Assembly: GCF_900141895.1 (NCBI RefSeq)
Contig: NZ_FQYT01000005.1
Span: forward strand, 62,001 to 126,000
DNA from: Parasporobacterium paucivorans DSM 15970
Lineage (GTDB): Bacteria > Bacillota > Clostridia > Lachnospirales > Lachnospiraceae
Direction: 5' to 3'
DNA length: 64,000 nucleotides
Made by a program: the position numbers and the translations under genes. Shown here piece by piece: positions 42,080 through 52,594 of this stretch. How positions within the stretch are numbered: the first letter of the stretch is position 1; the number at the start of each line of letters is the position of its first letter. The notes beneath the pieces are model-generated. The model ran no database searches. It saw only the letters and a list, made by a program, of their open reading frames with translations, and was not told where the DNA came from.

Positions 42080-42162
42080 TATGCAGCATACATAAACGAA
42101 ATCCAAAGGTTGGAATTAGGGCATTTATTGTTCTGATTCCTTTGCCAGTGAGGTGGTAATTG

Positions 42163-42843
42163 TTGAAGAACAAAGACATTCTGATAATTGAAGATGATAA
42201 GGCGATTACAAGAATATTGGAACTTGAATTTATGCATGAAGGATACACCTATGACATAGCCTTTGACGGGAAGGAAGGACTTGAAAAGTTTCAGACCGGT
42301 CAGTATGGAATCATTTTGCTTGATTTAATGCTTCCTGAAATCAGCGGCATGGAAGTATGCAGAAAGGTACGCAAAGGCTCGGACATACCGATTATCATGA
42401 TGACAGCAAGAAGAGACATCACAGATAAAGTGATTGGGTTGGATCTTGGGGCCGATGATTACGTCACCAAGCCATTTGAAATGGAAGAGCTGCTGGCGAG
42501 AATCAGGGTAGGTCTCAGGAGAAGCAAGGCCAAAACTGGAGAACAGAAAATATTGGAGCTGGCTGATTTGAGCATAAATCTTTTGACCAGAGAGGTTATA
42601 AAACAGGGGGATTGCATTGAACTTACTAAAACCGAGTATGATCTGCTCGAGTATTTGCTTCGGAATAAAGGTCTTGTACTAACCAGGGATCAGATTCTTG
42701 AACATGTCTGGGGCTATGATTTTGTAGGGGACAGCAATGTCCTGGATGTCTATATCAGATATCTGAGGAATAAAATCGACTATCCTTACGAGACAAAATT
42801 TATTCACACAGTCCGGGGTGTGGGTTATTCACTTAAGGAGTAG
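42163..42843 (+). CDS. OmpR-family response regulator
   Basis: About 226 residues. The receiver domain has IIEDDKAIT, the phosphorylated Asp (D54) in LLDLMLPE, MMTARRD and the DDYVTKPF lysine. The C-terminal winged helix has LTKTEYDLLEYLLRNKG and VYIRYLRNKIDYP with HTVRGVGYS, typical of OmpR/PhoB proteins. TTG 42163 is preferred because GAGGTGG is 6-7 bases upstream; an adjacent TTG at 42160 is closer than usual. The histidine kinase follows after 7 bases. Likely targets are the ABC operon upstream or the envelope genes downstream. Confidence 0.93.
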   Translation: MKNKDILIIEDDKAITRILELEFMHEGYTYDIAFDGKEGLEKFQTGQYGIILLDLMLPEISGMEVCRKVRKGSDIPIIMMTARRDITDKVIGLDLGADDYVTKPFEMEELLARIRVGLRRSKAKTGEQKILELADLSINLLTREVIKQGDCIELTKTEYDLLEYLLRNKGLVLTRDQILEHVWGYDFVGDSNVLDVYIRYLRNKIDYPYETKFIHTVRGVGYSLKE

Positions 42844-42850
42844 AGAAAAT

Positions 42851-44215
42851 ATGTTTAAATTCAGGCCGACTAAAATATCGCATAGATTGACGCTTACTTA
42901 TGCAGTGCTTTTTTTTACGGCACTCGCATTGGTGAATTTCGCAACCCTGTTCAGTATTAATTACTATATAAACCAGACCTCGGCCCAACAGCTTTGGCGA
43001 GTCGATCAGGCTATAGCGACCGATGTAAAAACATTAAATGACATCCCCAATATTGATTTGAAAAATCTCTCACAGATTGCCGAAAACACAGATATTAATC
43101 TTATATACAACGACAGGAGCCTCTATAACACGGGCGAGCTTTATAATTTGCCTGCTGTAGATACATCCACGATTGGCAGAACCCTGAAAGGCGAATCAGG
43201 AAATAATAAAATCATGTATCTGAATAATATCCTTATCTTGGACGGTGGCGAGACAATCACTGTTCAAATCGTAAAGGATATGGACAATGAAGAGGATTTT
43301 CTCCGTGTACTTGCCGTAATCATGCTCATAATGGATGTCGTAGTATTGCTGTTGGCAATAATAGTCGGCTACATCATCAGCAGAAGAGCGTTAAGCCCTA
43401 TTGACAAGATTACAAACCAGGCGAAAAAGATCAGTGCCAGCGACCTTTCTGCCAGAATCCATATAGATGGGCCGGATGATGAGCTGAAAAGGCTTTCGGA
43501 TACTTTTAATGACCTCATTGGCAGAATCCAGCATTCCTACGAAAAACAGAATCGATTTACATTGGATGCCTCTCATGAATTAGCTACGCCGTTGGCGGTT
43601 ATCAAAGGCTATATTGATGTCCTCGACCGCTGGGGCAAGGGGGATAGAGAAGTACTAAATGAAAGTATCTCGTCCATAAAGGTTGAACTGGCAAATATGA
43701 CCGGTCTTCTGGACATGCTGCTTTTTCTGTCAAAAGGCGACAATGAAATTTATAAAGTGGAAAAAACAAAATTCTGGGTGAATGATCTGATAAAAGAGCT
43801 TGTTAAGGAGAGCACTCTCGTAGATGAAAAACATCATATCTTTTGCAGCGCCTATCCGCAACTTCAAATGGAAGGGGACCGAAGGCTGATCAAACAGATG
43901 CTCAGGGCGATCATGGACAATAGCATAAAGTATTCGCCTCAGGATACAAAAATCGAAATAGAATACTGGGCATTAGATAAAAAGGTTGTTATTGAGATAT
44001 CCGACGAAGGCATCGGAATACCGGAAGAAGACCTCGCTCAGGTTTTCGACCGCTTTTACAGGGTGGACAAAGCCAGGTCAAGGTCAATTGGAGGTTCAGG
44101 ACTTGGTTTGTCGCTTGTGAAATGGATAGTGGATATACATAATGGAAGAATTGAGGCAGAAAGTGAGATTGGAAAAGGGACGAAAATGATGGTTGAGCTG
44201 CCGATAGAAGCATAA
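42851..44215 (+). CDS. sensor histidine kinase
   Basis: About 454 residues: a transmembrane helix at residues 14-35, an extracytoplasmic sensor domain of ~120 residues, a second helix at about 155-178, a HAMP linker (RRALSPIDKITNQAKKIS), a HisKA domain with the phospho-accepting His near residue 242 in DASHELATPLAV, and HATPase motifs NSIKYSP, ISDEGIGIPEED and SIGGSGLGLSLVKWI. The H box has ELATP instead of the commoner ELRTP. ATG 42851 has AAGGAG 10 bases upstream; it follows the regulator at once, so the two form one system. The ligand is unknown. Confidence 0.93.
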   Translation: MFKFRPTKISHRLTLTYAVLFFTALALVNFATLFSINYYINQTSAQQLWRVDQAIATDVKTLNDIPNIDLKNLSQIAENTDINLIYNDRSLYNTGELYNLPAVDTSTIGRTLKGESGNNKIMYLNNILILDGGETITVQIVKDMDNEEDFLRVLAVIMLIMDVVVLLLAIIVGYIISRRALSPIDKITNQAKKISASDLSARIHIDGPDDELKRLSDTFNDLIGRIQHSYEKQNRFTLDASHELATPLAVIKGYIDVLDRWGKGDREVLNESISSIKVELANMTGLLDMLLFLSKGDNEIYKVEKTKFWVNDLIKELVKESTLVDEKHHIFCSAYPQLQMEGDRRLIKQMLRAIMDNSIKYSPQDTKIEIEYWALDKKVVIEISDEGIGIPEEDLAQVFDRFYRVDKARSRSIGGSGLGLSLVKWIVDIHNGRIEAESEIGKGTKMMVELPIEA

Positions 44216-44502: not shown

Positions 44503-45615
44503 ATGATAAAAAATTTATTGATTATTTCCTCAGACCATACCGGACATGGACATAAAAGCATAACGGAGGCATTGTGTGAAGAATTTGCACAATATGAAGA
44601 TTTGAAAGTTCATATTTTTGATGGGTTTTCATTCGGAGGGAAGCCTTTGCTCCAAGTGGCAAAATCATATGGGCCAATTACCAGAAACGCCAAAGATCTA
44701 TGGAAAATAATCTGGAAAATAACTCTGGCGCAGCCTTCATTAATTAACGATGCCATAGAAATAATCATAAAGGAAAATCTGTTAGAGGTGCTGGAGAAGG
44801 TAAAACCCGACATGATTCTAACGGTTCATCCGAATTTCAATGGTTCTGTACTGAATGTGCTGGAACACAACAACCTCAAGATTCCGTTCATCACCCTCCT
44901 GGCGGATTTGGTAAATATAACACCATTATGGGCTGATCCCAGAGCGGATTATGTTATTTGCCCTACCTTTGAAGCCAAAGAAGTATGCATGCGATTAAAT
45001 GTGGAAGAGGAAAAGATAAAGGTTTTGGGATTCCCGGTGCGATCGAGGTTTTATAAGGATGAGGCGGGATCACAGGAAGAAAAGGAATATAAATCGGACA
45101 GACCTTTGAAATGCCTGGTCATGAGCGGGGGTGAAGGCTCTGGAAATATGAGCAGAATAGCTTCGATTCTCCTAGATAATTTTAATTGTACAGTAAAGAT
45201 TGTCGCTGGTAAGAATATTGCAGCAAGAAGGAGACTGGAGAGTGCTTTGCTGGGGAAATATGGGAAAAGGGTTGAGATATATGGGTTTATCAATCATATT
45301 CAAGACCTAATGATGGATTCAGATATTGCCATTACAAGAGGAAGTCCTAATGTCATGATGGAGGCAGTATCCTGCAACGTCCCACTTGTAATTGTAGGTG
45401 CGTTACCTGGACAGGAGGAAGGAAATCCAGATTATGCTTTGAAAAATGATCTTGGAGTGGTTTGCAAAGATGAGGGAAATCTGCAAAAAGTGATCAGTGA
45501 TTTGCTTTCTGATAATGCCAGGAAATTGAATCTAATAAAAAAATCTCAAAGACAGTATTCTAATCCTGATACAGCCAAGAACATAGTTGAGTTTATTCTG
45601 GGGTTGGAAATATAA
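44503..45615 (+). CDS. MGDG-synthase/UgtP-like glycolipid glycosyltransferase (GT28)
   Basis: A 370-residue protein. The N-terminal MGDG-synthase domain has LIISSDHTGHGHKSITEAL and a stretch DMILTVHPNFNGSVLNVL; the C-terminal GT28 domain has VMSGGEGSGNMSRIAS, IYGFINHIQDLMMDSDIAI and the donor-binding TRGSPNVMMEAVSCNVPLV with PGQEEGN. These features match diacylglycerol glucosyl- or galactosyltransferases such as UgtP and MurG relatives. It acts at the inner face of the membrane. It opens a run of seven same-strand, lipid-related genes. The sugar donor is probably UDP-glucose or UDP-galactose. Usual length is about 380-400 residues. Confidence 0.85.
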   Translation: MIKNLLIISSDHTGHGHKSITEALCEEFAQYEDLKVHIFDGFSFGGKPLLQVAKSYGPITRNAKDLWKIIWKITLAQPSLINDAIEIIIKENLLEVLEKVKPDMILTVHPNFNGSVLNVLEHNNLKIPFITLLADLVNITPLWADPRADYVICPTFEAKEVCMRLNVEEEKIKVLGFPVRSRFYKDEAGSQEEKEYKSDRPLKCLVMSGGEGSGNMSRIASILLDNFNCTVKIVAGKNIAARRRLESALLGKYGKRVEIYGFINHIQDLMMDSDIAITRGSPNVMMEAVSCNVPLVIVGALPGQEEGNPDYALKNDLGVVCKDEGNLQKVISDLLSDNARKLNLIKKSQRQYSNPDTAKNIVEFILGLEI

Positions 45616-45637
45616 AGGGAAAAACTATGGAGGTGTA

Positions 45638-47038
45638 ATGGCATTCAATAGAAAAAAAATTAGAATAATATACACCATAAGTGTGTTTATAGGCTTGGCA
45701 GCCTTCGACAATATTGTTATCGGACTTTTTCCGCCGTTGTTTTCACTGATTGCAAAAGATTTCGATGTGCATGTTTCGGCTTTAGGATATGTATCAGCAG
45801 CCAATATACTGGTTACCTGTGTATCGTCTGTCTACTGGGGATATCTGGCTGGGAAAGGAAACCGTAAAAAATATATAATAATTGGTACGGTCATTTGGGC
45901 AGTATCGGTCTTTCTGACATCGTTTTCCAGAAACTATGCACAGCTTCTTGTTTTACAGATATTTACCGGGGTAGGCTTGGGGTGTATAGCGTCCATAGGA
46001 TACAGCATATTAACCGATTATATACCTAACAGGTACAGAGGAATGCTTTTAAGTCTTTGGGGCATGTCGCAGGGTTTTGGCGGGATTGCAGGAGCATTGA
46101 TGGCATCGTTGATAGCTTCTTCGACAAGCTGGAGAATTCCTTTTGAAATCGTAGGTGTGATCGGTTTTCTTCTTTTACCCTTATATTTGTTTGTAAGAGA
46201 ACCGGATATGGGTGAATCGGAACCTGAATTGAAAGAACTCAAGGAAAAAGGACTTAATTATAACTACAAAATTGAAATTAAACAGCTGAATGGAATCATT
46301 TCAAAGCCTAGTAATATCTGGCTCCTTTTTCAGGGTTTTTTCATGAACATTGCAACGGGTACTCTGATCTGGCTTCCTACATTATATATATCTAAAATAG
46401 AGCATGCCGGATTCAGTGTCCAAACCGCTGTTATTGCCTCAGGATATCTTTTTGCCATGTTCCAGCTTGGAGGCCTTACATCTTCGTATTTCGGACATCT
46501 GGGCGATGTTTTCCAGCGCAGAACGTATAAGGGAAGAGCATATCTGGCTGCAATCGCTGTTTTTCTGGCCGCACCTGCATATATAGCGATGTTTATGATT
46601 CCGATGAAGAATTTATCACTGCCTGATAATGGCAATCAAATCATGGTATTGTTGCAGCTTTTGAAGGAAATAATCCTGAATCCGTGGCTTATGCTGATGT
46701 TCGTACTATCCTTTGTCGCAGCGGCAGCCCAGTCGGCCAATACCCCTAATTGGATGGCGCTCATAACGGAAGTAAACCTTCCGGAACACAGAGCCACGGT
46801 TTTCAGCCTGGCTAATCTCATAGGCGGTATTGGGAGGACAATTGGAAACGCAGGGGTAGGCATTGTTCTGGCATATGTGTCCGGTTTTACAAATGAACCA
46901 AATAATTATATAATTACATTAGTCTTATTCCAGGTAATTTTCGTCCCGGCAGCGCTGTGCTATCTAAAAATGGCCAGGTTCAATGTGATTGATATAAAAA
47001 GGGTCAGGTTTACGCTGCGACGAAGGGGTAGATCTTAA
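45638..47038 (+). CDS. MFS transporter, Spinster-like candidate lipid transporter
   Basis: About 466 residues with 12 transmembrane helices. The N-terminal half has AAFDNIVIGLFPPLFSLIAK, GYLAGKGNRKK between helices 2 and 3, and ILTDYIPNRYRGMLLSLWGM, a layout like Spns/Spinster-type carriers. Between helices 6 and 7 is a charged loop (EPELKELKEKGLN). GGAGGTG precedes the ATG by about 4 bases. It lies between a glycolipid-making GT28 and further envelope genes, which fits the idea of a lipid or glycolipid flippase (as LtaA, another MFS protein, is in lipoteichoic acid synthesis). That function is inferred from context only. Confidence 0.78.
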   Translation: MAFNRKKIRIIYTISVFIGLAAFDNIVIGLFPPLFSLIAKDFDVHVSALGYVSAANILVTCVSSVYWGYLAGKGNRKKYIIIGTVIWAVSVFLTSFSRNYAQLLVLQIFTGVGLGCIASIGYSILTDYIPNRYRGMLLSLWGMSQGFGGIAGALMASLIASSTSWRIPFEIVGVIGFLLLPLYLFVREPDMGESEPELKELKEKGLNYNYKIEIKQLNGIISKPSNIWLLFQGFFMNIATGTLIWLPTLYISKIEHAGFSVQTAVIASGYLFAMFQLGGLTSSYFGHLGDVFQRRTYKGRAYLAAIAVFLAAPAYIAMFMIPMKNLSLPDNGNQIMVLLQLLKEIILNPWLMLMFVLSFVAAAAQSANTPNWMALITEVNLPEHRATVFSLANLIGGIGRTIGNAGVGIVLAYVSGFTNEPNNYIITLVLFQVIFVPAALCYLKMARFNVIDIKRVRFTLRRRGRS

Positions 47039-47059
47039 TAATGAAGGGTGGCGGAGATT

Positions 47060-47551
47060 GTGAATAGATCGCCTGAAAAGATAAATGGTCTGGATATCGG
47101 CTTCTATGCAGGATTGGCCATCAAAGCTATAAATGCGCTGATTGAATTTGTCGGCGGTTTAATGATGATTGTTCTGAATCATGATTGGCTCAACAGGCTT
47201 ATACGGCTTGTCGCCATTCCTGAATTAAGAGAAGATCCAAATGATTTTATAATGAATTACCTCGTAAGGTTAGGACAAAACCTTTCAATCAACTCACAGC
47301 ATTCCGTTGCCATATACATGCTGCTGCATGGAATAACCAAGCTGATAGTAATATGGTTTCTGTGGAAGAAAAAAACGTGGGCATACCTTCCGGCGGTGGC
47401 CGTATTCGGACTTTTTATTGCTTACGAAATATACAGCTATGTACATACCCAGTCACCAATTATGGTTCCAATCATCATTATCGATGTGGCGATAATTGTT
47501 TTGATAATTTTAGAATACATACGGTTGAAAGCAGGAAAAGAAAAAAAGTGA
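47060..47551 (+). CDS. DUF2127-like membrane protein
   Basis: About 163 residues with four transmembrane helices: FYAGLAIKAINALIEFVGGL, a middle helix with SVAIYMLLHGITKLIVIWFL, YLPAVAVFGLFIAYEIYSYV and IIIDVAIIVLIILEYIRL. HGITKL followed by W-x4-K-x2-AY matches DUF2127 proteins. The start is ambiguous: GTG 47060 (GGAG 3-4 bases upstream) or GTG 47048. It begins about 20 bases after the MFS gene and ends 9 bases before the metallophosphoesterase, so it is part of the operon. Function unknown. Confidence 0.75.
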   Translation: MNRSPEKINGLDIGFYAGLAIKAINALIEFVGGLMMIVLNHDWLNRLIRLVAIPELREDPNDFIMNYLVRLGQNLSINSQHSVAIYMLLHGITKLIVIWFLWKKKTWAYLPAVAVFGLFIAYEIYSYVHTQSPIMVPIIIIDVAIIVLIILEYIRLKAGKEKK

Positions 47552-47560
47552 GGTGTGACT

Positions 47561-49042
47561 ATGAAAATGAAAAAAATCATCAACATAGCTATAATTACCT
47601 TATGCGTATGCCTTGCGGCCGGGATAGGTTCCTTTATATACAATACTGTGAGTTCGTATAAAATAAACAACGACTTTGCAAGCATCCCGCTTCAATTTAA
47701 TCCGGACGATTCTTCATCAACCTATCAAATGGGAAATGCAGAAGTCACCGTTTATGGCGGTTTTATCAAAGGAATCCAAAAGGAAAAAAATGGATCAGAA
47801 AGCCTTGTCATTAGGGCGCTGTCACCTTTGCCGTCTTTGAAAATCAAGGGAAAGACAGCGCAAAATATCTCATTGAGACTTGAAAACATAAACCCTGATT
47901 ATTATGCAGGCAGCATCATTGCGAACAATCTGCCGACTGCAAAGGTGACGGTCAATACCTTGCAGCTAAGTGTAGCATTGCATGCCGGTGAGAGTATCGA
48001 CATCGAACCGGTAGAGCCGGCGGGAAAACATAAATATCTGATACTTGGGGATAACCGGGATGGATATGACATATTTGCACAGATTATTCAGCAGTCAAAT
48101 GCATTAGAGCCTGTATTTGTTATCGATAATGGCGATCTTGTATTCAGCGGGAAAGCAAACCAGTACCGATTGTTCAATAAAACGGTGGGAAACCTCTCCA
48201 CAACGCTTTGCACGACTCTGGGCAACCACGACATCCGAGGAAATGGGCGTAACACCTATACCATGTTGTATGGTCCTGCCTATTATTCTTTTGATTTCGC
48301 AGACAGTCATTTTGTGTTTTTGGATTCATCACCGGGATGGGCCCAAAAACAGGCGATATCAGACAAACAATATACCTGGCTGGAAAACGATTTGAAAAGG
48401 GCACAGGGTAAACGTATTTTTGTTATCAGTCATATACCGCCAAAGGATCCGCGAAGCGGCGTGACAAAAAATGAAATTCCAAATTACGTAAATGAGATTA
48501 AAAATAATGCGAGCTGGCTGGAGCAGAAATTAAATAACTACAGTATAAGCAAAAGCATGAATCACGGGTTTCAGGATCCGGTGGAGGCGGCTAAGTTTGA
48601 AAACCTGATGAGCACCTATCACGTGGATACGGTGTATCTGTCACATATCCACAGCTATATGGAGTACACCAGGGACGGCGTGCGTTATCTTATAACTGGA
48701 GGTGCAGGGGCAGAGCTTTTAACGGAAAACAGCTATTACCATTATATTATCGAAAATCTTGGTGATTCCAAGGCTGCGACAATCGTGGAGCTTCCTTCAC
48801 CGGCGAACACCTATCTTGCGAGGTATGTGGCAACAGTACAGCTGTTTGCAAATGCGATGTACGAAGAGAATCCGGCTGCTGTTGTTCTGATAATTGCAGG
48901 CACTGTTATAATCCTGCTTTTATTGATCGTTAAAATCTATCTGTGGAAAAGAAAACCATTTAACACCCTGGGAAGATGGCTGCTTGATATCGGAAAATAT
49001 GCAGTGAAACGGTTTAAGGAGCTGTTTGGAAATAAAAAATAA
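47561..49042 (+). CDS. membrane-bound extracytoplasmic metallophosphoesterase
   Basis: A 493-residue protein with an N-terminal transmembrane helix (5-26), a beta-rich N-terminal part, a calcineurin-like phosphoesterase domain (about 160-400) and a C-terminal helix (about 440-462) with a basic cytoplasmic tail. Catalytic motifs are intact: LGDNRDG, DNGDLVFSG, LGNHDIRG, ISHIPPKD and LSHIHSY. The active site would face outside. The likely substrate is a phosphate ester or diphosphate in the envelope, for example a lipid diphosphate, but this is inference. It is a clear paralog of the domain in the 49711 gene, which has lost these residues. GAGGTG lies 6 bases before ATG 47561. Confidence 0.88.
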   Translation: MKMKKIINIAIITLCVCLAAGIGSFIYNTVSSYKINNDFASIPLQFNPDDSSSTYQMGNAEVTVYGGFIKGIQKEKNGSESLVIRALSPLPSLKIKGKTAQNISLRLENINPDYYAGSIIANNLPTAKVTVNTLQLSVALHAGESIDIEPVEPAGKHKYLILGDNRDGYDIFAQIIQQSNALEPVFVIDNGDLVFSGKANQYRLFNKTVGNLSTTLCTTLGNHDIRGNGRNTYTMLYGPAYYSFDFADSHFVFLDSSPGWAQKQAISDKQYTWLENDLKRAQGKRIFVISHIPPKDPRSGVTKNEIPNYVNEIKNNASWLEQKLNNYSISKSMNHGFQDPVEAAKFENLMSTYHVDTVYLSHIHSYMEYTRDGVRYLITGGAGAELLTENSYYHYIIENLGDSKAATIVELPSPANTYLARYVATVQLFANAMYEENPAAVVLIIAGTVIILLLLIVKIYLWKRKPFNTLGRWLLDIGKYAVKRFKELFGNKK

Positions 49043-49084
49043 CAGATTGCAATGAAAGCTGAATAAAAAAGGATGTGAGAAAAG

Positions 49085-49684
49085 ATGGAGACGAAAAAAC
49101 CGAAATATAATTTTATGAAATTCAGTTCATATATAGGCTTGGCAGCAGTCGGTATCTTTGTGTTTTACGGTTTTCGGACGGGAATGTTTTCTTCGGCTGA
49201 AAATTTCCACAAATTTATCGTCGGTTTTGGTGTGTGGTCAGCCTTAGTGTTTGTAATAATCCAGATTATTTCAGTTGTTGTCCCCCCGTTGCCCACATCA
49301 ATCGGAGGTATTGCCGGTATTATTGCTTTCGGACCGTGGTTGGGATTTTTATATAGTTATATCGGTATCTGCATCGGCTCCGTTTTTGCGTTTATGCTTT
49401 CAAAGAGATTTGGGCAGAAATTCGTGAAAGGCATGGCTGGTGGGAAAGCCTATGACAAATATATAAGCTGGGCCGGGAGGGGAAAGAAGTTTGACAGAAT
49501 GTTTGCTCTGGCTATTTTCTTTCCCGGAGCCCCGGATGATCTGTTATGCTATATTGCAGGCCTGACGGAAATGCACCTCAAAAAATTTATTTCAATAATT
49601 GTACTTGGAAAGCCGATGTCAATAGCCGTATATAGCCTGGGACTCACCACGGCTGCCCATTATATCTTTTCGTTGTTTAAATAA
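49085..49684 (+). CDS. TVP38/TMEM64-family (VTT) membrane protein
   Basis: A 199-residue protein with five or six helices. IISVVVPPLPTSIGGIAGII and FGPWLGFLYSYIGICIGSVF followed by LSKRFGQKF are typical of the VTT core, and FFPGAPDDLLCYIAGLTEMH is the second conserved region. Members of this superfamily scramble or flip phospholipids or undecaprenyl phosphate. It lies between a phosphoesterase and a glycosyltransferase fusion, which supports a lipid-translocating role. GATGTGAG-like ribosome site upstream is weak. Confidence 0.9.
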   Translation: METKKPKYNFMKFSSYIGLAAVGIFVFYGFRTGMFSSAENFHKFIVGFGVWSALVFVIIQIISVVVPPLPTSIGGIAGIIAFGPWLGFLYSYIGICIGSVFAFMLSKRFGQKFVKGMAGGKAYDKYISWAGRGKKFDRMFALAIFFPGAPDDLLCYIAGLTEMHLKKFISIIVLGKPMSIAVYSLGLTTAAHYIFSLFK

Positions 49685-49710
49685 ATGAAAATGTGGAAGA
49701 GGTATGGACA

Positions 49711-51924
49711 TTGAGCAGAAATATGTTGAAAAATCTGATATACAGTGCATCGGTAATTCTTATCATCATCATATCCTATAAAGTATATCTGTCATTTCAT
49801 GAATCGGATTTTAAAAACAGAAATTATGAAAATATTAAAATGATAAACAGCGGTGAAGAGGCAGGTGTATTTTCTTTTGCAGTAGAGGGATCGATTGAGA
49901 ATTCAATAGATGTATTTCAAAATGAAATCATACAAAATATCAATTCGCACAAGGATATTGCCTTTAATATTTCGACCGGTGATGCGGTGCTTGACGGTTC
50001 CGAAGATAAATACAGGATATTGAATACTGCCTTAAAAGGACTTAACGTGCCATCCGTCATCGGTATAGGGAATTCCGAAATATCGGATGGAGGAGCAAGG
50101 CTGTTTTATAAACATTTCGGACCCTATTACTTTTCCTTTGTTTATGGAGGCAGTTATTTTATTTTCATTGATACAACCGGGACGACCGCGTTTGATCTGC
50201 AGGAATCCTGGCTATCTGATGAATTGATAAAAGCAGATGATTACAGTCATATTTTCGTGATTATGGACAAATCTCCTTTGAAACAGGATGCAATAAAAAA
50301 TAAAGACTTTAGAACATTTCTTGTCGATAAATTTTCAGAGCATAAAGTGACTGGTGTGTTTACGAATGGAAATGCATTCGAGGAAAATATCGAGAAGGGT
50401 GTAACGTATTATTCCAGTGGCGGAGCCGGCGGACTGATGCTGAATGCTTCGGCAACAGGTGATTATCATTATCTGAAGGTGGATGTCACACCGGGTGGAG
50501 CAGTCGTAAAACCTGTTGATATTCTCACTGTTTCCAAAAATCCCTTCATAAAAATGATAGAGGGTATTTGGATTTATATTCATTCTGTTTTCTATGCACA
50601 ATTTGTGAATTTATCGCTGGGGATTTTTGCAGTCTGGCTTATCTTTTTGATTATGTACAGAAAAGTTTCAAAAGACGTGAATTACTACAGGGATTTCAAC
50701 CGTACTCATAAAAGCATTGATTTGAACAGAAAATTAAACATTGCTATGTTTACAAATAACTATCTGCCTTTTGTCGGAGGTGTGCCTGTCTCTGTCAACA
50801 GACTTGCCACAGCATTGCGTAAAAAAGGAAACAGGGTGGTTATATTTGCCCCCTATTACCCCGGTGCAGATGACAGCAACGATGATGTTGTTCGCTGTAA
50901 GCTTCTTCGCTATAAAAAAACGGACAAATTCAGCTTTGCAATTGCGAATATTTATTCGAAACAAATCAGTAAAGAATTCGACAAATATGATTTTGATGTC
51001 ATTCATGTCCACCATCCATTTTGGATGGGTAAAAAAGGCCTGAAATTAGGAATCAAAAAAAATATTCCAGTAATTCTGACATACCATACGCGTCTGGAGA
51101 TGTATGCGCAGAACATGCCTATTTTTAAATTGACATTTAAAAATATACTTTCACATGGCATGATCAAAAAATTTGCCCAAAAATGTGATGGCATCATAGC
51201 ACCTACCGAATCGGCCAAAGAATACCTGGAAAATATTGGTGTAAGCAGGGAGAAACTTGTGATGCCGACGGGTGTGGATTCTGAATATTATGAAAACATA
51301 GACGAATGCACAATAAAAAGCATAAAAAAAACATATGCGCCAAATGGTGAAATGCTTCTATGTTCTGTATCAAGGCTGTCCTCTGAAAAGAATATCAGGT
51401 TTCTTATAAACGGATTGAAATATATAAAAGAAAACACTCCCTTAAAGTTTAAGTGCATTATTATCGGAGACGGGCCGGATCGTGGAGATTTACAGAGTCT
51501 TATAGATGAATATTCGTTAAAGGATTACGTTCTTTTGATTGGAACGGTCAATCAGAATGAAATACCGCGATATTATCTGGCATCGGATTTATTCGTCTTC
51601 AGTTCCCAGTCTGAAACCCAGGGAATGGTGCTTCTGGAAGCAATGTCAGGAAAATGTCCCGTTGTCTGTGTACGGTCAAGCGGAACGGATGATATGGTCA
51701 GAAATGGGTTCAATGGCTATAAGACATCCCCTGATATAACGGAATGGGCAGAAAAGGTAATGTACCTGATCGAAAATAGAGAAATTCTTGAAAAAATGAG
51801 CATGAATGCATTCAAATACTCAAAGGAATTTACGCTGGACAAAATGGCAGAGAATGTTTCTATGTTTTATAAAAAACTGATAAGTGTACATGAAAATGAG
51901 ACCAGGGAGAACGAAAATGTTTAA
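49711..51924 (+). CDS. transmembrane fusion: inactive phosphoesterase-like domain + GT4 glycosyltransferase
   Basis: About 737 residues: N-terminal transmembrane helix (about 7-25), an extracytoplasmic domain (30-285) homologous to the phosphoesterase at 47561, a second helix (about 300-322), then a cytoplasmic GT4 glycosyltransferase (340-730) with FTNNYLPFVGGVPVSVNRLA, VIHVHHPFWMG, PTGVDSEYY and the EX7E motif ETQGMVLLE near residue 635. In the phosphoesterase part the metal ligands are lost: GNSE (S122) replaces GNHD, MDKS (D186) replaces SHIP, and NGN (219-221) replaces HIH. The GT4 part resembles diacylglycerol or glycolipid glucosyltransferases. TTG 49711 has AAGAGG 8 bases upstream. 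The next gene overlaps by 8 bases. Confidence 0.87.
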   Translation: MSRNMLKNLIYSASVILIIIISYKVYLSFHESDFKNRNYENIKMINSGEEAGVFSFAVEGSIENSIDVFQNEIIQNINSHKDIAFNISTGDAVLDGSEDKYRILNTALKGLNVPSVIGIGNSEISDGGARLFYKHFGPYYFSFVYGGSYFIFIDTTGTTAFDLQESWLSDELIKADDYSHIFVIMDKSPLKQDAIKNKDFRTFLVDKFSEHKVTGVFTNGNAFEENIEKGVTYYSSGGAGGLMLNASATGDYHYLKVDVTPGGAVVKPVDILTVSKNPFIKMIEGIWIYIHSVFYAQFVNLSLGIFAVWLIFLIMYRKVSKDVNYYRDFNRTHKSIDLNRKLNIAMFTNNYLPFVGGVPVSVNRLATALRKKGNRVVIFAPYYPGADDSNDDVVRCKLLRYKKTDKFSFAIANIYSKQISKEFDKYDFDVIHVHHPFWMGKKGLKLGIKKNIPVILTYHTRLEMYAQNMPIFKLTFKNILSHGMIKKFAQKCDGIIAPTESAKEYLENIGVSREKLVMPTGVDSEYYENIDECTIKSIKKTYAPNGEMLLCSVSRLSSEKNIRFLINGLKYIKENTPLKFKCIIIGDGPDRGDLQSLIDEYSLKDYVLLIGTVNQNEIPRYYLASDLFVFSSQSETQGMVLLEAMSGKCPVVCVRSSGTDDMVRNGFNGYKTSPDITEWAEKVMYLIENREILEKMSMNAFKYSKEFTLDKMAENVSMFYKKLISVHENETRENENV

Positions 51925-52594
51925 TGATATATTTGAAAAAACCGCGGTTACGGTTATGAAAAAGTATATTGAATTCGTATATAATACAAGTAATGTAAGG
52001 ATATGTGGGAATAAAGACATTTTCAAAAAAAATTCAGAGGAAAGGGTGGTAGCTCTATTTTGGCATGGCGACAGTTACTGCCTTTACCCCGCACTGAGAG
52101 GATCCGACATGTACATTATTACAACAAAAGATAGAAGAGGAGACTACATCTCAGACATATGCAGCTATTTTGGCTACAAGACGATAAAGGTGCCCGATGC
52201 ATCCGATGGAGGACAATATATATTCAAAATTGGAAAAACTATCGCAGAAGGAGATGTTTCTAACATTGCCATATCGGCTGACGGGCCGCTTGGCCCATAT
52301 CATGTGCCGAAAGACTTTGCAATTGCCACGGCGGCTCTGACAAAAAGAAAGCTGCTCCCCATAACAATAGATGTGAGAAGAAAAATTGAGCTGAAGAAAA
52401 GGTGGGATGATTTTAAGATTCCCTTGCCGTTCAATGAAATAACAATTCATCTTAACGAACCAATTGAAGTTACCAGGGAAGACCGGAAAGAAAAATTTTC
52501 AACGCTGAAAAAAAACATCAGAATAATTATGGAAACCAAAAGGGAGACTGTTCAAGATCTGATTTACTTGACAAAACAGCAATCGAAATGGTAA
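51917..52594 (+). CDS. lysophospholipid-acyltransferase-like protein (DUF374)
   Basis: About 225 residues. VVALFWHGDSYCLYPALRG, IITTKDRRGDYISDICSYFG, and the second motif ISADGPLGPYHVPKDFAIAT followed by ALTKRKLLPITI match the DUF374/LPLAT family, relatives of lipid A acyltransferases. Such enzymes transfer an acyl chain onto a lipid. ATG 51917 overlaps the stop of the GT4 fusion, with GGGAGA upstream, so translation is coupled. It ends the glycolipid operon. The next promoter begins inside its 3' end. Confidence 0.85.
   Translation: MFNDIFEKTAVTVMKKYIEFVYNTSNVRICGNKDIFKKNSEERVVALFWHGDSYCLYPALRGSDMYIITTKDRRGDYISDICSYFGYKTIKVPDASDGGQYIFKIGKTIAEGDVSNIAISADGPLGPYHVPKDFAIATAALTKRKLLPITIDVRRKIELKKRWDDFKIPLPFNEITIHLNEPIEVTREDRKEKFSTLKKNIRIIMETKRETVQDLIYLTKQQSKW

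Follow-up and report, generated by a model that had tools for sequence, protein, structure and literature searches.

A single gene in the 64,000-nucleotide stretch of Parasporobacterium paucivorans DSM 15970 DNA analyzed here (contig NZ_FQYT01000005.1, positions 62,001 to 126,000; hereafter the window) encodes a 737-residue protein that joins a degenerate calcineurin-like phosphoesterase domain, set between two hydrophobic segments, to a family 4 glycosyltransferase (GT4) domain. The protein is tentatively read as a membrane-spanning lipid glycosyltransferase, with somewhat less than an even chance that the catalytically dead outer domain binds an exported lipid or a flippase and couples synthesis to export. 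The proposed mechanism includes: (i) a GT4 domain that would add a sugar to a lipid inside the cell, (ii) an outside domain that would retain the phosphoesterase fold, lack the metal site and bind without cutting, (iii) a bound partner that would most likely be the exported lipid, a lipid or polymer that carries phosphate, or the outward-facing side of the partner flippase, and (iv) binding outside that would couple synthesis inside to export outside. The matching of bacterial glycolipid synthesis to export is poorly understood, and here one protein would span both faces of the step. For several Clostridioides difficile glycolipids, the available excerpt of a 2025 paper says that it is not yet known which flippases, if any, take part (PMC11898633). 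The features of the fusion gene are:

49711..51924, + strand: fusion gene, 737 amino acids (transmembrane helix TM1, degenerate phosphoesterase domain, TM2, GT4)
49723..49779, + strand: TM1 hydropathy peak, residues 5-23, N-terminus presumably inside
49822..50565, + strand: predicted outside degenerate calcineurin-like phosphoesterase domain, about residues 38-285 (BLASTP, profiles, ligand alignment, AlphaFold2 strands and helices)
49882..49893, + strand: motif I position, VEGS (paralogue LGDN), Asp gone (alignment)
49975..49983, + strand: motif II position, TGD, Asp retained here and Asn in the 13 other fusions (alignment)
50068..50079, + strand: motif III position, GNSE (paralogue GNHD), Glu in 14/14 fusions (alignment)
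50263..50274, + strand: motif IV position, MDKS (paralogue SHIP) (alignment)
50365..50373, + strand: motif V position, NGN (paralogue HIH) (alignment)
50602..50658, + strand: TM2 hydropathy peak, residues 298-316, basic residues after
50734..51921, + strand: predicted cytoplasmic GT4 domain (Pfam, NCBIfam, structure matches)
51613..51639, + strand: intact EX7E motif of GT4, ETQGMVLLE

The start used is TTG 49711, preceded by ggaagaggtatggaca; GTG 49693 is an in-frame alternative. The open reading frame, hydropathy peaks and Pfam matches agree with an earlier note on this DNA, which described an outside domain held between two membrane helices and joined to GT4. Pfam places the GT4 domains at residues 361-708 (numbered from GTG 49693), with matches to PF13439 (1.8e-30) and PF00534 (5.4e-36). 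The motif that we take, by name and definition, to be the EX7E of GT4 enzymes spans E635-E643 and is conserved in four aligned fusions and three aligned plasmid fusions. A frame error as the origin of the fusion is ruled out, as 14 separate fusions exist.

The outside domain is securely assigned, by sequence comparison, to a calcineurin-like metallophosphoesterase (PF00149) ancestry. The N-terminal part matches the phosphoesterase encoded upstream in the window (47555..49042) at 65.5 bits in BLASTP (2e-15, 22% identity), and profile-profile comparison (hhalign) of the outside domain with this protein gives a probability of 99.8% (E 2.2e-30). The homology between the two had been noticed earlier and is borne out, while their spacing, given then as 1.5 kb, is 668 bp end to start and 2.15 kb start to start. 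A 10-row profile of the domain also finds PDB entries of purple acid phosphatases (1e-5); in that alignment MHSP lies opposite MNKS and GHVH opposite SGIE, the histidines of MHSP and GHVH being presumably those of the metal site. Pfam has no significant match for the N-terminal part of the window protein alone; thus, the phosphoesterase assignment leans on homology. At an E threshold of 1, PF00149 picks up 3 of 10 domain members (best 0.0012) and misses that of the window, so the degenerate domain is easily overlooked by annotation. An AlphaFold2 model of the fusion built from five sequences (predicted local distance difference test, pLDDT, 69.3; predicted template modeling score, pTM, 0.45) has alternating strands and helices in the outside domain. 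All 50 Foldseek matches listed for this model in the PDB are GT-B glycosyltransferases, and the VIA-align rows (Z up to 31 for the GT4 part) cover mainly residues 339-727, so the fold of the outside domain rests on sequence profiles and on these strands and helices. A single-sequence AlphaFold2 model of the upstream phosphoesterase was discarded (pLDDT 40.9).

The metal site is lost throughout the fusions read. Ligand positions were assigned by alignment to the paralogous phosphoesterases in a table of 14 fusions, four intact paralogues and one protein in which a related domain is fused to a VTT domain (L068; G and L numbers are handles for genomes and loci); the motif I-V residues treated as metal ligands or as the catalytic histidine are our assumption. 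The paralogues retain D, D, N, H, D, H, H, H in 4/4 cases. The possibility that relatives keep the metal residues was examined: 14/14 fusions lack the histidine of motif III, the two of motif V and any histidine at the aligned motif IV position. The motif I Asp persists in one fusion (G383), the motif II Asp in one (D91 of the window protein; Asn in the other 13) and the motif III Asn in one (N121 of the window protein). Three Rhodobacterales fusions carry GHP one residue past the aligned motif IV position, and this histidine may be the original one of motif IV. Glu replaces the motif III Asp in all 14, Glu123 and Tyr101 are invariant, Arg102 is near-invariant, and residues at most ligand positions vary from fusion to fusion. 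The changes that the earlier note listed for the window protein (GNHD to GNSE, SHIP to MDKS and HIH to NGN) are exact, and its claim that every alignable metal histidine is lost stands; D91 and N121, two non-histidine ligand positions, remain. By its ligand set, the outside domain is probably not a conventional active calcineurin-like phosphoesterase.

The ratio of nonsynonymous to synonymous substitution rates (dN/dS) indicates that the dead domain is under purifying selection, with values of 0.095, 0.219, 0.211, 0.199 and 0.198 for the outside domain and 0.06-0.18 for GT4 (five chosen pairs; dS exceeds 1, so these are rough). Topology was judged for 10 of the 14 fusions (the four from plasmids left out) from Kyte-Doolittle windows and charge, a simple scale with no trained predictor. 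The fusions judged in this way have a first helix close to the N-terminus and a second around residue 300; G954 has a third, adjoining helix call, and the truncated L067 protein has no first helix. In the window protein a basic residue lies ahead of helix 1 and a net basic stretch behind helix 2, a charge bias that is weak or reversed behind helix 2 in some fusions (G954, G1005, G1079). An arrangement with the N-terminus in, the phosphoesterase-like domain out and GT4 in fits these data; placement of both domains on the same side was considered, and hydropathy and positive-inside charge instead predict opposite sides.

The fusions are sparse and widely scattered. Ten are from genomes (the window, G699, G809, G954, G344, G353, G383, G1005, G1079 and L067) and four from plasmid records (L112, L114, L115 and one of Halomonas), and their hosts are Bacillota, a metagenome-assembled genome (MAG) labeled Deferribacteraceae (L067), Rhodobacterales and Halomonas. 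The genome samples overlap, and the counts refer to sampled genomes only. Other genomes with the fusion number 3/391 in the order sample (G344, G353, G383) and 3/390 in the class sample, searched with a profile (G699, G809, G954); two more, G1005 and G1079, come from 128 genomes of the order to which G699 and G954 belong, and none from 67 genomes of the order of G809. No domain match was found in 298 other genomes of the same family with a single-sequence query, which divergent copies could escape. Among genome contigs, a single-domain query found nothing and an alignment query found four loci: two labeled Candidatus Epulonipiscium (Bacillota; the same as G383 and G353), L067 and L068, the last labeled a Mesoaciditogaceae MAG. 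Both MAG labels may reflect misbinning. Plasmids yielded 33 matching records, 30 of them from Pseudosulfitobacter, and four of the 33 were read; phage records gave no match, so a phage origin is unsupported. The three plasmid copies with annotation (L112, L114, L115) are named merely "glycosyltransferase", a label that hides the pseudoenzyme domain and is a warning for annotation.

Genes of a flippase type are the recurrent neighbors. One lies directly upstream in 10 of the 13 loci with upstream sequence (L067 has none), the type being LPG_synthase_TM in eight (G699, G954, G344, G1005, G1079, L112, L114, L115) and VTT in two (the window and G809); in the three plasmids the flippase-type gene shares 4 bp with the fusion gene. 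A DUF374 match in Pfam adjoins six fusions (the window, G954, G809, G344, G1005 and G383), with G954 and G383 scoring below the curated cut-off and G344 equal to it as printed. The DUF374 candidate of G1079 has no Pfam match, and the G699 fusion is followed by a contig end. Short DUF374 frames, perhaps decaying or frameshifted, follow the fusions of G383 (160 amino acids, L042:6664-7143) and G353 (110 amino acids, L043:6733-7065). Several lipid-handling genes cluster at the G1005 locus, where a VTT-PAP2 protein is encoded two genes upstream of the fusion (L108:4630-5820) and two LPG_synthase_C frames lie downstream. Because L112 carries a gene annotated as alkaline phosphatase D, phosphate-starvation control was considered for the Rhodobacterales plasmids; a Pho-box pattern had no match in L112, L114 or L115 (about one expected by chance), a result that weighs neither for nor against such control. 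In the window (G000; a 2.44 Mb genome in 52 contigs), the fusion gene belongs to a tight same-strand run named from Pfam, with gaps of -29 to +42 bp:

44503..45615, + strand: GT28/monogalactosyldiacylglycerol (MGDG)-synthase-like glycosyltransferase, resembling diglucosyldiacylglycerol synthase below the cut-off (Pfam, NCBIfam)
45587..47038, + strand: MFS transporter of the same tight run (Pfam, NCBIfam)
47048..47551, + strand: DUF2127 membrane protein (Pfam)
47555..49042, + strand: paralogous membrane-anchored phosphoesterase, ligand residues intact, ATG 47561 (Pfam, hydropathy, alignment)
49085..49684, + strand: VTT/DedA-type membrane protein, candidate lipid transporter (VTT_dom of Pfam, 2.7e-21)
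51917..52594, + strand: DUF374 protein, candidate acyltransferase (a function we assume for DUF374), overlapping the fusion gene by 8 bp (Pfam)

The GT28 protein scores 115.9 bits against the diglucosyldiacylglycerol synthase model (cut-off 500). The VTT protein has no NCBIfam match at E up to 0.001 and hence falls outside the UptA equivalog. A scan of the run for promoters and terminators gave 2 terminator-like sites against 6.4 expected. Upstream lie a response regulator (42160, called from sequence only) and a histidine kinase (42818, Pfam), at 42160-44215 of the window. Similar regulator-kinase pairs adjoin the operons of unfused GT4s in G015 and G003, and such a pair also lies near the G1005 fusion (judged by sequence start only).

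The GT4 domain is a putative lipid glycosyltransferase, as suggested by its class and its gene neighborhood. The best NCBIfam model is alpha-monoglucosyldiacylglycerol synthase NF049988 (172.7 bits against a cut-off of 400), the match being confined to the GT4 part (residues 343-727); the next models are of lipid glycosyltransferases (IagA/BgsA, GlcNAc-PG synthase) and also of BshA, TuaC and others. The lipid assignment thus draws on the neighborhood: the GT28 protein resembling diglucosyldiacylglycerol synthase, the flippase-type genes and DUF374.

Certain known systems share parts of this organization. HexSDF of C. difficile makes a membrane glycolipid from an operon with a lipid glycosyltransferase gene and an MprF-like flippase gene, HexF not being required for synthesis in overexpression tests, as described in the available excerpts (PMC10128005, PMC11898633). 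The likeness lies in the glycosyltransferase gene beside a flippase gene and in the adjoining two-component system, the regulator-kinase pair by the window run recalling HexRK beside hexSDF. HexS is, by contrast, of the MGDG-synthase type without a GT4 fusion, the system includes the deacetylase HexD, and the excerpts mention no phosphoesterase-like domain. Pfam identifies no deacetylase gene among the seven window genes at 44503-52594. GpgSDF of Pseudomonas aeruginosa similarly combines a GT4, GpgS, with GpgF, a putative flippase of the UPF0104/AglD2-YbhN type whose activity is unverified, according to the available part of the source (PMC12713373). GpgS is instead predicted there to be cytoplasmic and is unfused, a deacetylase is present, and the product is glucosaminyl-phosphatidylglycerol. 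The window flippase candidate, a VTT protein, is of another family than HexF and GpgF. A third comparison is with PlcP, which we take to belong to the phosphoesterase kind. The plcP-agt system pairs a phospholipase C with a GT4 in remodeling lipids to glycolipids; these are two separate, catalytically active proteins, and the available excerpts describe no transmembrane fusion (PMC4796936, PMC9239053). Only the window and G699 have an intact-looking phosphoesterase gene close to the fusion. The DedA/UptA undecaprenyl-phosphate transporters resemble the VTT neighbor in the window, and the L068 protein scores to UptA; the difference is that L068 falls below the UptA cut-off and the window VTT protein is without an NCBIfam match. 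Among the matches listed from open-licence PMC papers, no description of a phosphoesterase-GT4 transmembrane fusion was recognized.

A related degenerate domain is also found without GT4. The L068 protein (L068:2328-3860; Mesoaciditogaceae label, Thermotogota) fuses a related degenerate domain to a UptA-like VTT/DedA protein (154.7 bits against the UptA cut-off of 250) and is encoded between RseP-like and IspG-like genes (named from sequence). Its domain scores 23.8 against PF00149 (cut-off 21.5), keeps the motif IV histidine, and has Asn for both Asp and Arg for the motif III histidine. Two phosphodiester-glycosidase (NAGPA) proteins, L039:262-2136 (G340) and L100:1498-3378 (G1050), weakly match the dead-domain query and may represent a further use of the domain. 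The matching part is apparently outside the NAGPA domain and lacks PF00149 at E up to 0.001; that of L039 has no GNHD or GHxH.

The evolution of the fusion was traced on GT4 trees, from which L067 is absent (its GT4 is incomplete). In the first, nine genomic fusions are split by a branch from four unfused GT4s of VTT operons, with support of 87/67 for the fusion group. In the second, which is midpoint rooted, includes four plasmid sequences and omits two free GT4s on long branches, 13 fusions and four unfused GT4s group at 100/100, and the unfused GT4s nest among the fusions at 91/92 (below the star level of the tool, with three Rhodobacterales rows of unlike composition). This pattern favors, without proving, an ancient origin of the fusion, after which relatives from the window's family lost the outside domain. 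The closest relative of the window fusion, G699, is of a different order (58% identity in the N-terminal part, 72% in GT4), and no other sampled genus of the window's own family has the fusion, which hints at acquisition by transfer. The lower G+C content of the fusion and DUF374 genes (0.38, compared to 0.42 for the window) is a weak sign of the same. Since unfused relatives exist, the outside domain is dispensable for GT4 chemistry as such, and these relatives are natural controls for its role.

Non-catalytic binding coupled to export is the simplest account because the domain is conserved, is predicted to lie outside, is mostly encoded beside candidate lipid transporters and recurs in the VTT fusion of L068. 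Several observations weigh against it. Neither flippase type is directly upstream in 3 of 13 loci (G383, G353 and Halomonas; from the frames listed), and the annotation of three Rhodobacterales plasmids has no DUF374 next to the fusion (the PLSDB gene tables are incomplete). The closest PDB matches listed for the GT4 domain are BshA/MshA, whose acceptors are small soluble molecules, and GT4 enzymes also act on non-lipid acceptors. The nested or sister-clade GT4 relatives without the outside domain retain the VTT neighbor, no GT4 gene occurs in the 11.8 kb around the L068 protein, and the NAGPA proteins may imply that the domain need not be linked to lipid export everywhere. A broader and more doubtful proposal is that the dead phosphoesterase is a portable module, a reader or docking piece of the outer leaflet that is fused to GT4 in Bacillota, Pseudomonadota and the Deferribacteraceae MAG and to a DedA-type transporter in the Mesoaciditogaceae MAG and would serve as a trans-bilayer checkpoint, linking lipid glycosylation inside to the appearance of lipid outside.

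The earlier suggestion that the outside domain senses a ligand becomes one option among the possible non-catalytic roles, which include lipid handling and flippase docking. As an allosteric sensor, the dead domain would bind an external ligand, either soluble or part of the wall, and the helices would relay a signal tuning GT4 up or down. Opposite-side topology, a dead site with new invariant residues and the signs of purifying selection are all expected of such a device; it is nonetheless unlikely, as two single helices offer a simple path for a signal, the neighboring genes suggest lipid transport rather than a stimulus, and a histidine kinase is already encoded upstream of the run. That the domain is a ligand-free anchor or spacer, merely fixing GT4 in the membrane or positioning it in a complex, is less probable again: unfused relatives exist and the N-terminal part evolves faster than GT4 (mean pairwise identity of 42% versus 54% among nine fusions), yet a plain anchor would not call for a 240-residue fold that distant bacteria conserve together with invariant residues.

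Pairing or competition of the dead domain with the intact phosphoesterase paralogue is improbable. The two genes share one run in the window, G699 has the identical order of phosphoesterase, flippase-type gene and fusion, and paralogues with 48% identity or more are confined to 3/391 genomes of the class sample, all of them fusion carriers. The pairing is not general, however, because the paralogue is present in 3/9 fusion genomes (G000, G699, G954) and 0/3 plasmid records; in G954 it is distant from the fusion, and G1140 has a paralogue and no fusion detected. The G1140 phosphoesterase (L107:519-2538), intact and 69% identical to that of the window, has DUF2127 beside it as in the window. Altered catalysis, in which the domain would act on a lipid phosphate through other residues (e.g., the invariant Glu) or another metal, has similarly little probability: Glu123, Tyr101, Arg102, the Asn that all but the window protein have at position 91 and the Rhodobacterales GHP could serve it, but the motif III and both motif V histidines are gone in 14/14 and residues at most ligand positions differ among members.

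Other matches fall outside the fusion family. No GT4 part was found in G340, G428, G1022, G1021 or G1081 (a 299-residue frame, seen in part), and G428, with GNHD and GHQH, is probably an ordinary phosphoesterase. Pfam likewise finds no GT4 in G695, G646, G721, G861, G1050 or G1112, all but G1050 of which are PF00149 proteins above the cut-off. A 1123-residue frame of G055 (L024:379-3747) combines GT4 domains (388-724) with MGDG_synth and GT28 C-terminal matches, the latter two in two stretches each, and is by its predicted domains a multi-glycosyltransferase fusion.

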